Of a stretch of DNA of 58,314 nt, positions 3,183 to 47,520 are shown piece after piece. The notes beneath the pieces are model-generated. The model worked only from the letters and a program-made list of their open reading frames with translations, made no database searches and was not told the origin of the DNA. A program made the translations under genes and the position numbers. The stretch's first letter is position 1, and each line of letters opens with the position of its first letter. The DNA is taken from positions 1 through 58,314 of the forward strand of contig MHBE01000017.1 in NCBI GenBank assembly GCA_001803205.1, in the 5' to 3' direction. This stretch comes from Lentisphaerae bacterium GWF2_38_69 (lineage in GTDB: Bacteria; Verrucomicrobiota; Lentisphaeria; Victivallales; GWF2-38-69).

Positions 3183-5366
3183 ATGAGAATAATTCATAAA
3201 CAGCATAAAGGGCATACCTATCTAAGCCACAGCCATTTTAGGTTCAAGATAACGCTCAGTACTTATATTATTACGGGTCTTGTCCTTGGAATAGTCGCAG
3301 GGATATTTCTCGGTTCTAGAGCAGCGCCTCTGTCCCAAATCGGTAGAACCTGTGTGGACTTGCTTCAAATGGGAGTTATTCCATTTATTGTAGTGAGTTT
3401 AATTTGCGGACTTGGAGAAATATGCGGCGCAAGCCTTAAAAGGCTTCTTATTTCCTTTGGTCTTTCAAGCATTGCAATGTGGCTGCTCTTCTTCATTACA
3501 GCTGTAGCATTATATATGACATTCCCTTCAATTGAACAGCATTCTCTTTATAAATTTTCCAAAGCAGCTGAAAAACCTCTATCTGAGATGTTTGTTCCTG
3601 AAAACCCATTTCATGCCATGGCTGAAGGTTTTGTCCCCGCAGTAGTAGTTTTCTTTATAGCTCTCGGAATAGCCATTATTCCGGTAAAAAACAAAAAACC
3701 TTTCCTTGAATCGATGAACACGCTTCTACAGGCACTATTAAAGCTGAACAGCTTTATGGTTAACCTAGTTCCGATTATTGTATTCTGTTATACTGCCAAC
3801 TTAGTAGGAAACAGTAATATGACAGTGGAGAAACTTCTGGAATTTCAGGTATTTCTGCTCTCTGCATTTCTGGGATGCATCATTACCTTCTTTTTCATTG
3901 TTCCTCTTCTGGTAGTTACCTTTACAGATATTGGATACTACGAGTTTATGCGTGAGTTCAAGCATATAGTCATAACCGCAATGTTAACTGCAAATACGAT
4001 CATCATGATACCTATGATTATTGACAAACTTGAGGAACTATCCAAGAAACATAAAATAGAAGGAGAAGGCAATACTTCTGTAATTCATACTTCCATCACT
4101 GTAGGCTTTAATATAACCGGCCCCTCAATGATCCCTACAGTAATTTTCATACTTTTTGCTTCCTGGTTTATAGGAGAAGATGTTTCTATGAGACTTCCGG
4201 GGATATTTGTTTATGCTGTTACAACCCTGTTTGGTGGGCAGACTTTTAGCGTGATAGCATTGTTAGATTTTCTTCATCTTCCGCCTGACATGCTAGGGAT
4301 TTACATGACATTCCAGCAGTTATATCTGGTAAACATCATTGCTGCGATCAAGCAACCATTCCTGGCAGCTCTTGCTCTGATTTGCGTGTTTGTCAATGTA
4401 AAAAGAGAATCCTTCAAAATCCTCCCATTCCTTAGGTTGGCAGTAATTGGAGTGACCTCAATAGCGATAACTCTGATTGGTCTTTCTATTTACTATAAAG
4501 ATACGGTTAAGGGCAATCCAAACGCATTCGCTTCTCTAGTAGATAAAATGGTTCTTGAATCGCCGGTTCCTGTAACAGTTGAAAACACTACCCCAAAACT
4601 GACACATGGAGAAGAATTCAATACTCTGGAAGATATCGTCAACAATAAAGAGATTGTTTTTGCATATAAAAACCATTTTGAGCCATTCACATTTAAGAAC
4701 TCCAAAGGAGAGCTCATGGGATTTATGACTGCACTTGTAGAAAGGCTTGCAGCCTCACTTAACTGTTCAGTAAAATTCGTTCCGGTAGATAACTACCAGA
4801 TCACAATGGAACTTTTGAAATCAGGAGATATAGATCTTGCATTTTATGAGTTCAATATAGACGATATAGATCATCTTCTTAATGTAGGATATTCAGATCC
4901 GATATTGTATCTTCAGTCAGGCTTAGTAGTACACAACTCTGATAGAAATATTTTCTCAAACTGGAAAAACATACTGAACAATCCTTCAATAACAATAGCA
5001 ATAAGCAGTTTATACCCGCTCAACCACATACTTGAAAATGAAATTAAAAAAGCAAACAAAGCAAAAATAGTTTATGTGGATCAATTTACTTTAAAAGATA
5101 TACCAAACACAAATTTCCCCGCCTATTTTACATCAGCTGAAAGAGGTCTATTCTTCTGTCTGGAATACCCAAAATACTCATTTATTATGCCTGACGGCAT
5201 TCCATCAATCAATCAAAACACTCTGATATTCATGACAAATCCAAAGAATAACGGATTGCTATATTACATAAACTATTGGCTCAAAATACAGAAGGAAGGC
5301 GATAATGAGAGCGAAGTCCAAAAGCTATACGAGTACTGGATCGAAGGCAAGATCGAAAAAGATTAG
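3183..5366 (+). CDS. dicarboxylate-type cation symporter fused to a periplasmic solute-binding domain
   Basis: This is a 727-residue fusion. Residues about 20-420 are a DAACS (glutamate/C4-dicarboxylate:Na+ symporter) membrane domain with the characteristic start (TYIITGLVLGIVAGIFLG, then LLQMGVIPFIVVSLICGL). The loop motif that is NMDGT in classical members here reads FNITGPS, and the usual serine-rich hairpin is TANTIIMIP, so the substrate may not be an acidic amino acid. An extra hydrophobic segment (IGVTSIAITLIGLSIYY, about 423-440) follows the transporter. Residues about 475-720 resemble a family-3 solute-binding protein (IVFAYKNHFEPFTF, GELMGFMTALVERLA, GDIDLAFYEFN). Classical DAACS proteins end in the cytoplasm, so one added helix would put the binding domain in the periplasm. 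A broken paralogue lies at 27496-28479. Confidence 0.85.
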   Translation: MRIIHKQHKGHTYLSHSHFRFKITLSTYIITGLVLGIVAGIFLGSRAAPLSQIGRTCVDLLQMGVIPFIVVSLICGLGEICGASLKRLLISFGLSSIAMWLLFFITAVALYMTFPSIEQHSLYKFSKAAEKPLSEMFVPENPFHAMAEGFVPAVVVFFIALGIAIIPVKNKKPFLESMNTLLQALLKLNSFMVNLVPIIVFCYTANLVGNSNMTVEKLLEFQVFLLSAFLGCIITFFFIVPLLVVTFTDIGYYEFMREFKHIVITAMLTANTIIMIPMIIDKLEELSKKHKIEGEGNTSVIHTSITVGFNITGPSMIPTVIFILFASWFIGEDVSMRLPGIFVYAVTTLFGGQTFSVIALLDFLHLPPDMLGIYMTFQQLYLVNIIAAIKQPFLAALALICVFVNVKRESFKILPFLRLAVIGVTSIAITLIGLSIYYKDTVKGNPNAFASLVDKMVLESPVPVTVENTTPKLTHGEEFNTLEDIVNNKEIVFAYKNHFEPFTFKNSKGELMGFMTALVERLAASLNCSVKFVPVDNYQITMELLKSGDIDLAFYEFNIDDIDHLLNVGYSDPILYLQSGLVVHNSDRNIFSNWKNILNNPSITIAISSLYPLNHILENEIKKANKAKIVYVDQFTLKDIPNTNFPAYFTSAERGLFFCLEYPKYSFIMPDGIPSINQNTLIFMTNPKNNGLLYYINYWLKIQKEGDNESEVQKLYEYWIEGKIEKD

Positions 5367-29929: not shown

Positions 29930-30274
29930 CCTGTAATACCTGAATTCAGTCGTTTACTGTTTTTATTCTGAGCAATGGTTTCAATAGCTTAATGTTTTTA
30001 ACAAAATGATACGAGCGCTTATTTTTGAGCCAATGTTAACGCGTCCAGATCTGGACTGATCCTCTGGATTACTTTTATGCTGCCACCCCTAGCCCTTGCT
30101 TGGAAGAGGTCATAGTTTGTGACCAGTTATTCTTCTTGACTGATGCTAGAGAATTAGTGATGCACTGTTAACATTATTATCTAGTAGGCTATTCTTAATA
30201 CTGGAATCACCTGAATTTCGAATTGTCGCCTTTATGGTTTGCGTTCTCTAAAAGAGATAGGAATTCAGGTTTTT
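29930..30274. other. intergenic region with palindrome and terminator-like end
   Basis: No gene is seen. GTCCAGATCTGGAC (30043-30056) is a perfect 14-base palindrome, GGTCA/TGACC forms a hairpin near 30109-30125, and CCTGAATT (about 30211) pairs with AATTCAGG (30262-30269) directly before a seven-T run. A structured small RNA or a long-loop terminator for the transglutaminase gene is possible. Confidence 0.4.
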
Positions 30275-30277
30275 TTA
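30211..30277 (+). terminator. possible long-loop terminator
   Basis: CCTGAATT and AATTCAGG pair over a loop of about 43 bases that contains its own small hairpin (TCTC/GAGA). The right arm runs directly into TTTTTTTA. The T run also overlaps the stop region of the DUF3800 remnant on the other strand. Confidence 0.4.
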
Positions 30278-30682
30278 TTTAGGCCATACTTGAATATAGA
30301 CTTCTTTACTGCTAATAAATTTCCTATAATCAATAGTATCTGACTTTTTTTGAATTTTGCGGCTAATTATACTGCAAATATAATCTGCCATTTGTAAGAG
30401 GTTATTTAAATGCGATTCCTGCATCTTAATTTTCTTTACCATCTCATGGTCAATTTCTGCTTTAGTCCGTAAGTATTTACCTAGCTGAGAACGAAAGTCA
30501 TAATCACCACTTTTGTCTATAACTACAATAGCGTGCCTTAGATAAGGTTTAATATTTTCAAAGACTAATCGGCAAGCGTATTTATATAGTGATTCTTTAT
30601 GCTTAAACCCTTCTCTATATAATTTCTCGGGATCTTTGTTTATTGCTATCCCTGCACCCTTCTTGATTCTTTCATCCGGTAC
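30275..30682 (-). pseudogene. DUF3800 C-terminal fragment
   Basis: This open frame of 135 residues lacks any start codon near its 5' end, being preceded by a TGA at 30683-30685. It carries the DUF3800 ending, with DKSGDYDFRSQLGKYLR and QESHLNNLLQMADYICSIIS. DUF3800 proteins are RNase H-like nucleases of unknown role, often near mobile elements. The N-terminal part with the first catalytic Asp is missing. The upstream sequence is a different small gene, so a recombination has probably replaced the 5' half. Confidence 0.6.
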
Positions 30683-30843
30683 TCAAGGCTTTGCGACTGC
30701 TTCTTACGGTATTTTGCTTTAGCTGCTCTGAGACTTGCCTGGCGACATTCCTCATCCCAACAGTAGTGCTGTGCATAAGGTTTGAACTTTCCTAGCCTGA
30801 AATACCTGCCGCAGTTTCTGCATCGCTTTTCCTTCCTTTTCAT
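30646..30843 (-). CDS. small zinc-finger-like protein
   Basis: This 65-residue basic protein has CRNCGRYFR near the N-terminus and YCWDEECRQASLRAAKAKYRK after it, a C2-C(4)C zinc-knuckle spacing. The family of short CRxCGRxFR proteins is common beside transposases and mobile genes in several phyla. Its end overlaps the DUF3800 remnant in another frame. It may itself be a truncated end of a longer protein. Function is unknown. Confidence 0.5.
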   Translation of the reverse strand: MKRKEKRCRNCGRYFRLGKFKPYAQHYCWDEECRQASLRAAKAKYRKKQSQSLEYRMKESRRVQG

Positions 30844-31205
30844 AGGCTATCAATCCTGAAAATTGTTAAGAAAAAGGAAGAAGATAGGTTTTATTGAATT
30901 ATCTCGGAAGAATATGAAGAAAATTGATTAAAAAAGAACTTTTAAGAAGATCTCAGAAGAAAATATTCGGAATTCCATGTTGCTAGAATTTCCGGGGTTT
31001 CAAATTGTTGCCGTCACTTTTCGAGCAATTCATTGACAAAAAGGTTTTGAGTTATGAGTGAAAATGTCTAATACTGGAAGTCTAAAGCGAAGCTTATTTC
31101 CAAACCGCTTATTGACGCTGATATGCACTGATAAAATACTTAGTGAAAATCAGTGCAGATAAGTCGTTAGAATGATTTGTTTTATCGTTCGTGTCTGTTC
31201 TTGAA
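30844..31205. other. intergenic region with direct-repeat copy 1
   Basis: No gene is visible. The block TTTTCGAGCAATTCATTGAC...GTTTTGAGTTATGAGTG at 31017-31060 recurs with a few changes at 31953-31995, on the other side of the toxin-antitoxin pair at 31206-31722. Confidence 0.55.
31017..31060 (+). repeat. direct repeat flanking a toxin-antitoxin module (copy 1)
   Basis: This is a 44-base block; copy 2 lies at 31953-31995 with about 80 percent identity by eye. Both are in the same orientation and bracket the RelE/Phd-type module, which suggests that the cassette moved or duplicated by recombination between these repeats. Confidence 0.6.
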
Positions 31206-31478
31206 CTAATAAACCTCATCATGAGTTCCTATACTTACAAGCATGATCGTATCTTCAATCATGATAAAATAAAGCATGATCCTGTAAGCCGCGTTTATGG
31301 ATACGCTGTAAAATTCCGATAAGTTGCCCTTCAGTTTGTGGAGTCTGAGCGAAGGATGAGAGGGATTTGTTTCAAGTAATAAAAGAGTTTTATAGTATTG
31401 CCTGACAAGATGAGGATTTTTCTTCAGGAATTTGCCGGCTGACTTGGTATATTGCTTATTTGTAATCAGTTTCGGCAT
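31206..31478 (-). CDS. RelE/YafQ-like toxin
   Basis: This 90-residue protein has the RelE-superfamily pattern KSAGKFLKKNPHLVRQYYKTL, then LHKLKGNLSEFYSVSINAAYRIMLYFI, and ends in SIGTHDEVY, the typical GxHxxxY C-terminus that supplies the catalytic residues for ribosome-dependent mRNA cleavage. It overlaps the upstream antitoxin gene by 23 bases. Repeats lie on both sides of the pair. Confidence 0.83.
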   Translation of the reverse strand: MPKLITNKQYTKSAGKFLKKNPHLVRQYYKTLLLLETNPSHPSLRLHKLKGNLSEFYSVSINAAYRIMLYFIMIEDTIMLVSIGTHDEVY

Positions 31479-45727: not shown

Positions 45728-45961
45728 TTAAGTGAATATATCCTCAAGGGAATATTTCTTTCCTGAAGCTTTGTTCAATGCATTGAGAATCTTTGACTGC
45801 GTGTTACGGGTTAATAATCTTCCTTTGCACGCACGGTTAACCATTTTGAAAGTAAGTTGTTCAGCAGATGCTGATACAAGGTCTTTGGCAGTAAGATTAT
45901 GAGAATCCATAATTTGACAGATATGGAGTCCTTCATGATTTTGTTCATTCTCTGTATTCAT
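45728..45961 (-). CDS. small helix-turn-helix protein
   Basis: This 77-residue protein has ICQIMDSHNLTAKDLVSAS, LTFKMVNRACKGRLLTRN and QSKILNALNKASGKKYSL. The order (helix, turn, recognition helix with a basic face, final helix pair) is that of a minimal Cro/XRE-like regulator. It lies just beyond the 3' end of the large ncRNA, in the same orientation. A role in its control is speculation. Confidence 0.6.
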   Translation of the reverse strand: MNTENEQNHEGLHICQIMDSHNLTAKDLVSASAEQLTFKMVNRACKGRLLTRNTQSKILNALNKASGKKYSLEDIFT

Positions 45962-46126: not shown

Positions 46127-47230
46127 AAAAAAAAAGGATGTCGTGAAGATTTCACAGTTCATATAGTTGCCTATATTGCTGTTACGCGATACTCAGGTTA
46201 AGCCTGTATTGCTTACTGTGGGCGTTTAATTCCTCAGTTGCTTAATATTGGCCGAAAACTGAACTTCCTTTTGATGTTATCTCAGGTTTCTTCGTCTTCT
46301 TTTCCCGATACTCTTCAGCATCAGGTCTGTTCAGAACTACCTCATTGTGTCACTTTCAGACTTTTTACTTCAGTTTTCACTGAAATTCTTTGTCTGTGGC
46401 TTTATTCTTTTGCCGTACAGATCTTATGTCCAACTGGTTTAGTATGTTGGGATATTTCAGATCCTGCTGCTTATTCCGGATTACTCTGGTATAAGCTGAC
46501 TTTATGTGTTTGTTCTGATCACTTCGGAAATGACCTCTGTATCTCTACAAAAAATCTTATCCGGCATTCCCATTGACCGTCTTTAGCTTCGTATATCCTG
46601 AAAAGGAATATTTATTTTCCTTCTCTGGCAATCTTTCGATTTGCCGACCTTATGTATGTTTTCATATCATCAAGGTTTTTCCTGCATTTCTGCTTCGGTA
46701 CAGCCTTCAGCAGTATTCTTCTGCTTTGTGCTGCACTGATATCGAGCATAACCTTTCGAGTACTTTAGAACATAAGTTTTATCTTATGGGGCTTTCTATG
46801 CCGTTATCCTGCATTAAGCTTCCGCACTCTTTAAAGACTATGAAGTAACCAACTTCAGTCTATTTGGAACTAGTTTTTCTTTCCAGTCCCTTTTGTCAGG
46901 GAATCCTCCAGCATGTCCTTTGGGTATTCTCCATACTGGATATCCTTAGGCCTGAACACTCCTGGATAGCTTTAGCTACCCTTCGTACCGTTTCCGATAC
47001 TCTTGGATTACCTTATTAATCCTTTTTAGGAATTTCTTCCTTTACTCCTATGAAAGTTTTTACGCTTTCACGGCTTCAGCGTTCATCGGCCTGGATCATT
47101 GAAACAACACCTTTTCTCGGTTTTATCCGTTACTCATGTCTATTGTTCCCCTTTAGCTATTGCTATCCTTTCAGATAACAATGCTCTTCCTTGTATCTAC
47201 CGCAATTTCTTACGGCCTTCACGACATCCT
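46127..47230 (-). ncRNA. large ornate structured RNA, about 1.1 kb
   Basis: The minus strand has no credible gene but dense RNA structure. The 5' arm AGGATGTCGTGAAG (47230-47217) pairs perfectly with the 3' arm at 46148-46135, and the 3' arm merges with nine U (46135-46127), so the ends close like a terminator. GNRA-capped stems: 47215-47200 (6 bp, GAAA), 47182-47159 (10 bp, GAAA), 47000-46985 (GAAA), 46645-46627 (GAAA), 46549-46538 (GAGA), 46385-46368 (7 bp, GAAA), 46176-46161 (6 bp, GCAA). Other stems: 46981-46964 (7 bp, UAAA loop), 46939-46908 (7 bp), 46861-46835 (10 bp plus bulge), 46788-46771, 46625-46600 (9 bp), 46535-46517, 46496-46469, 46421-46393. The GNRA loops fix the strand. The layout resembles OLE/GOLLD/ROOL RNAs, but identity is unknown. 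No clear promoter was found, so the true 5' end may be further upstream (to about 47340). Confidence 0.82.
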
Positions 47231-47520
47231 CAAATTTTCAAAGATCTTTTAATTCTCTTCAGTTTTCAACTTTGTTTTATCGCAGTTGCGCTGAGAGGGT
47301 CATTAAGATGCCAGCTTATTATTCTTTAGCAAATCAAGTATCTAAAATATTTTAAAGATTTCTTATAAACTTTTTAAAAAATCACAATTAGTTAATAATT
47401 ATGCTATTAAGAATATAATTAATGTTGTAATGAGGCTGTTTATGAATATTTACCTTACAGTTTTATTGGGCTTTTAAGCATAACAGCATAATTAAGCTGC
47501 AGTAAGCGCAAGCTAGTTTA

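Follow-up and report, generated by a model that had tools for sequence, protein, structure and literature searches.

What does a bacterial chromosome encode in more than 1 kb of intergenic DNA that holds no credible protein on the strand that seems to matter? This question was raised by the window studied here, a stretch of 58,314 nucleotides from Lentisphaerae bacterium GWF2_38_69 (contig MHBE01000017.1), in which a first-pass annotation made from the letters alone proposed a giant noncoding RNA on the minus strand. We place the structured-RNA gene on that strand at 47231-46127 and call this copy C17. Outside rRNA, very few RNA families known from bacteria are this large. We are highly confident that the conserved fold is real. 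We assign it to a new family of giant structured ncRNA, and the locus very probably encodes a functional giant RNA of which three diverged versions are present in one genome.

The first grounds for the proposal, the lack of a protein and a set of at least seven GNRA-capped hairpins on one strand only, held on recounting. The element has no minus-strand ORF of at least 50 aa. If stems of at least 5 pairs are required, the minus strand forms seven GNRA hairpins and the plus strand forms none; shuffled sequence contains 0.28 on average with a maximum of 3. When stems of at least 4 pairs are admitted, the minus strand has eight (six GAAA, one GAGA and one GCAA), the longest stem having 10 pairs, G-U included. 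The predicted minimum free energy of the minus strand is -352.6 kcal/mol (z = -19), where 40 dinucleotide shuffles average -233.8 ± 6.3; the plus strand reaches -285.5 kcal/mol. Controls of 800 nt from the same window gave z values from +2.4 to -5.1, compared with -13.6 for the RNA element. Elsewhere in the window, a 1.28-kb stretch at 29930-31205 without ORFs of 90 aa holds a match to the Rfam DUF3800-IX RNA (30209-30274, plus strand, 48.2 bits); its overall fold is not unusual by the shuffle control. At 31206-31478, a 90-aa minus-strand ORF has, by eye, the look of a RelE/YafQ-type toxin.

The element is not alone in its genome. A DNA search of the 3.12-Mb assembly (66 contigs) found diverged copies on three further contigs. 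Searches with larger pieces delimited two full-length ones, C48 (locus L006, about 4425-3397, minus strand) and C35 (locus L008, about 4298-5298, plus strand), and the third, C56 (locus L007, 2827-2940), is a decayed 3' fragment 78% identical to the C17 copy. Identity over aligned columns is 61% between C17 and C48, 51% between C17 and C35 and 50% between C48 and C35, and the folding z values of the three full copies are -19, -10 and -8.8. The copies sit at unrelated intergenic chromosomal sites among ordinary chromosomal genes, which are, site by site, a transglutaminase-like protein and a 77-aa ORF, a cyclophilin and a thioesterase, and a macro domain and a GNAT protein. At C48 and C35 the next gene downstream points towards the RNA, which is therefore not a leader of that gene. 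No clear phage gene was found among the tested neighbours, and no tRNA lies within 8-10 kb around the C48, C56 and C35 copies; the nearest in the window is 43 kb away. The 77-aa ORF (45728-45961), which lies on the strand of the RNA and downstream of it, has no significant Pfam or PHROGs match, and no counterpart was noticed beside the other copies. The C56 fragment lies just upstream of an RNase II gene; the 3' strand of its end-closing helix reads TTTTCATGACATCCTC.

These copies bear on whether the region might be a degraded protein gene or a plus-strand antisense gene. Such a reading could draw on two plus-strand ORFs of 112 and 91 aa that lie over the element, but they have no consistent homology in the other copies, which they match weakly in short stretches that track the conserved RNA blocks. 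Alignment gaps between the copies are mostly not multiples of three and no ORF is conserved, which contradicts a coding reading and which we count in favour of an RNA gene. We regard a degraded protein gene or a plus-strand antisense gene as extremely improbable.

The ends of the RNA are joined by helix P1, in which 47231-47217 (GAGGATGTCGTGAAG, the 5' strand, nearly invariant in all copies) pairs with 46148-46134 (CTTCACGACATCCTT, the 3' strand) through 15 pairs including one G-U. Its 14-bp core (47230-47217 with 46148-46135) had been described as perfect and beyond chance; re-reading of the sequence confirmed the former, and simple arithmetic, giving an expectation of about 0.002 for such a match anywhere in 1.1 kb, agrees with the latter. 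The nine U reported after the last arm are present as nine T at 46135-46127 of the minus strand, the presumed RNA 3' end, and a tract of the CTCTTTTTT type follows P1 in all copies. The local hairpin GUGAA/UUCAC (46155-46143), put forward as an alternative 3' structure, is missing from C48 and C35, and we dropped it because it is not conserved.

The helices are common to all three full copies, where compensatory changes preserve them. We specified thirty-one helices manually in these copies and checked every arm by script; since the choice was manual and several helices are short, the statistical test was placed elsewhere, on RNAalifold scores and pair counts. Covariation was read from only three full sequences, in which 22 pairs in the two tested domains changed on both sides. 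In domain A, 14 of 44 pairs in the MAFFT alignment did so, a count reached in none of 500 shuffles and at most 3 in slid versions. In domain B the figure was 8 of 21, again unequalled in 500 shuffles. RNAalifold windows compared with column-shuffled alignments gave z values of -4 to -6.8 in several windows; the signal is mostly stronger on the sense strand, and the antisense strand also scores, as expected from mirrored pairing. In P16 the three copies read GUGCAGC/GCUGUAC, GCACAGC/GUUGUGC and AUAUGAA/UUCAUAU, and 6 of the 7 pairs changed on both sides. The first-pass annotation had looked to homologues with covarying stems and a conserved closing helix for support, and the two diverged full-length paralogs, which show both, speak strongly for a new giant ornate ncRNA.

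The helices, all on the minus strand, are arranged from the 5' end as follows. Hairpin P2 (47200-47215) has a covarying stem and a GNRA loop that reads GAAA in C17, GAAA in C48 and GCAA in C35. Hairpin P3 (47160-47181) has a GAAA loop in C17 and C48, which in C35 (L008 4348-4371) is replaced by a palindromic tip, CCCAUGGG; this self-complementary loop could pair between molecules. P4 (47148-47143 with 47107-47102) and its inner hairpin P4a occupy 47102-47148, the arms of P4a being GAACAA/UUGUUU, GAACUU/AAGUUU and GUAAUACG/CGUAUUGC in the three copies. In domain A (46894-47095; RNAalifold z to -5.5), the long-range helices P5, P5b and P6 are set around P7-P10 and are followed by P11. P12 and P13 (46842-46885) lead to domain B (46616-46816; z to -6.8), which contains P14, P15, P16 and P17-P19 with GAAA loops, and then to P20 and P21 (46536-46622), the latter with a GAGA loop. 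The long-range P22/P22b (46331-46518) pairs 46518-46512 with 46337-46331 and 46500-46497 with 46352-46349, has the internal loop AAUGAGGUAGU, and surrounds a variable region, containing P23 and a hairpin with a GAAA loop, that is unalignable among the copies and has an RNAalifold z near 0. The 3' region (46161-46286; z to -4.9) holds P25-P28, and the GCAA loop of P28 in C17 is kept in the C56 fragment. Unpaired motifs are also largely conserved, namely AGGAYAAYG in the P14 loop, AAUAnCCAA in the P11 loop and the internal loop of P22, which suggests tertiary or protein contacts. We discarded two sets of long-range RNAalifold pairs (raw MAFFT columns 53-58/732-737 and 106-111/515-520), which were incompatible with P2 and P4, the better hairpins, and also a hammerhead-like reading of CGATGA...GAAA, which C35 lacks.

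Could the copies instead be a MITE-like non-autonomous transposable element that is bounded by 15-bp terminal inverted repeats and has proliferated in this genome, with C56 as a decayed copy? Inverted ends, several unrelated sites, one partial copy and absence from relatives would fit this. However, on the 5' side conservation continues for about 100 nt past the inverted repeat, on the 3' side it ends at the T-tract, compensatory changes keep the internal helices across 50-61% identity, and the GNRA loops are confined to one strand. The covariation in particular speaks against a transposable element, which we hold to be very improbable.

With over 500 nt, many covarying stems and no protein, the gene shows sequence features by which giant ornate ncRNAs are recognized, and the first-pass annotation left open whether it is a member or relative of the OLE, GOLLD and ROOL class or a new one. 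Rfam cmscan of all copies, at gathering and at permissive thresholds (E up to 5-10), gave no credible match to any family, and membership is not supported. This includes the models of ROOL (RF03087), GOLLD (RF01998) and OLE (RF01071), as well as HEARO/IsrB-linked RNA, the core or domain V of group I and II self-splicing introns, and SSU and LSU rRNA. The surroundings likewise differ: the phage or prophage context near tRNAs of ROOL is absent at the copies, no phage genes lie beside them as for GOLLD, OapA, the OLE partner gene, is not among the neighbours, which differ from copy to copy, and no IsrB or HNH gene adjoins. Nor does the pattern of conservation follow the GOLLD type of a conserved 3' and a divergent 5' region, the 5' and middle domains being no less conserved than the 3' region. 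If the models had missed a diverged ROOL, GOLLD or OLE, or else an rRNA derivative or self-splicing intron, this could account for the size, the GNRA loops and the closing helix, and the stretch ATGAACGCTG is reminiscent of the 16S rRNA 5' end. A 10-nt match will arise by chance between two RNAs as large as these, and three diverged copies, all without a match and without phage or tRNA context, leave such a reading only a slight probability.

The new family appears narrowly distributed. A model built from domain A (R1) found only the three known copies in 389 relatives and 388 genomes of the phylum (overlapping sets), and one from domain B (R2) only these in 294 relatives; model matches at G162/L045 and G079/L067 lie in coding DNA and are false. 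Neither blastn against phages and plasmids, with the copies as queries, nor pattern scans of GTDB genomes gave a homologue, and scans of viral contigs, made with exact patterns only, returned either nothing or ten chance matches without an R1 match. The sole match in genome contigs to a pattern of P1 and the boxA-like site described below, in Sphingobacterium prati, lies at a gene start and is due to chance. As no species of the same genus was among the genomes searched, the result is compatible both with a vertical, genus-specific family and with horizontal acquisition.

How might such a long untranslated RNA be made? The best-conserved 25 columns of the whole alignment, TTTGAAAAyTTGAGrATGTCGTGAA (23 of 25 invariant), consist of the P1 5' strand and a boxA-like site (TCTTTGAAAA, 47235-47244, minus strand; CTTTGAAAAyTTGAG among the copies) that lies 3 nt ahead of the closing helix. 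The assembly contains no 16S rRNA gene or rRNA operon, despite a stated completeness of 95%, and the comparison was made with the 16S (rrn) leaders of relatives, GTTTGAAAATTGAATAG (G012), GATTGAAAATTGAATAG (G003) and GATTTGAGAATTGAACTG (G001). TTTGAAAAyT is common to the G012 leader and partly to those of G003 and G001; the leader of G001 (TTTGAGAATTGAAC), the closest relative with a 16S gene, which is presumably a member of the Lentisphaeria (Verrucomicrobiota), matches inexactly. We read the block as a likely boxA. Farther upstream, TTTGCTA (47333-47327) and CTGGCATCTTAAT (47314-47302), as they read in C17, are separated by 12 nt, with the same spacing in the alignment of all three full copies; a sigma-70 scan did not call this block (47302-47333, minus strand), which we regard as a putative promoter. 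The order of parts recalls a pre-rRNA, with this promoter candidate, a boxA-like site, an end-closing helix and a U-tract.

A different view of the same block is that the giant RNA is real and the block is a promoter or leader element, the RNA being made without rRNA antitermination and serving a regulatory or protein-binding role rather than that of a scaffold or cage. The identification as boxA amounts to a similarity of about 10 nt to the leaders of relatives, TTCTTTGAAAA occurs 23 other times in the genome, and AAAGA/TCTTT may form a small hairpin. Against this, no other part of the gene is as well conserved as the block, the distance to P1 is 3 nt in each of the three copies, and Rho would target an RNA of 1.1 kb that is not translated. 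We consider this view unlikely, if worth keeping in mind.

Our favoured reading, which we hold to be reasonably probable, is a free-standing ncRNA gene of about 1.1 kb from a new family with three full-length paralogs, whose transcript recruits antitermination factors at the boxA-like site, is closed by P1 and acts in trans as a scaffold. In E. coli, boxA is both required and sufficient for the antitermination complex to form, and the anchoring of boxA to NusB has been proposed to aid pairing of leader and trailer once the rRNA is made (PMC10250234). By analogy with this order of parts, a boxA here would protect the 1.1-kb transcript and join its ends. RNA polymerase would start at the conserved block farther upstream, and NusB-S10, the rRNA antitermination complex, would be loaded at the boxA-like site. 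This complex would keep Rho off the long untranslated transcript and hold its 5' end until the P1 3' strand has been made; the molecule would then be closed by P1, and transcription would end at the U-tract. The closed, GNRA-rich RNA might act in trans as a stable scaffold, either as an RNA-only oligomer or within an RNP. The sequence itself shows the gene, its fold, its paralogs and the conservation of the boxA-like site and P1; we infer transcription and antitermination, and the scaffold or self-assembling role by analogy with OLE, ROOL and GOLLD. That a non-ribosomal giant RNA is made in the manner of rRNA, the boxA complex protecting and tethering it before the end-to-end helix forms, and that the three paralogs yield three specialised RNA machines, is a tentative idea, possible and just short of probable. 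The boxA-like site would hint at a way in which cells produce untranslated RNAs of great length and escape termination by Rho.

The systems nearest in kind are OLE, ROOL and GOLLD, which assemble into RNA-only complexes. OLE occurs mostly in Bacillota with the gene of its protein partner OapA adjoining; ROOL forms a homo-octameric RNA cage and is found in phages and prophages, often near tRNAs; GOLLD is phage-borne, near tRNA islands, with a conserved 3' and a divergent 5' region. The new RNA is not a member of these families and may work like them. It is longer than all three and is present as three diverged paralogs in one chromosome. It shares with OLE a large, structured, chromosomal RNA with conserved unpaired motifs, but has no model match and no conserved protein gene beside its copies. 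GOLLD and ROOL, ornate RNAs of about 660 and over 800 nt, resemble it in their large size, in stems backed by covariation despite low sequence conservation, in GAAA loops, in a variable linker barely similar among homologues, comparable to the region inside P22, and in having no known protein partner (PMC12286853). Unlike them, the new RNA, at about 1.1 kb, has a 5' boxA-like site and lies outside phages and prophages and away from tRNAs. In pre-16S rRNA, too, boxA precedes the 5' strand of a helix that closes the whole RNA over a long range, but the new RNA has no rRNA inside, and its boxA-like site is 3 nt from P1, whereas boxA and boxC are 18-19 nt apart in Enterobacteriaceae (PMC10250234). 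The Lactobacillus plantarum supermotifs (LPSMs; Wels 2009, cited in PMC5643018) are intergenic elements of 800-1000 nt with many copies in one genome, found in one species only and without an assigned function; their fold, in contrast, is described as cruciform-like. The LPSMs are the nearest known pattern of occurrence (PMC5643018).
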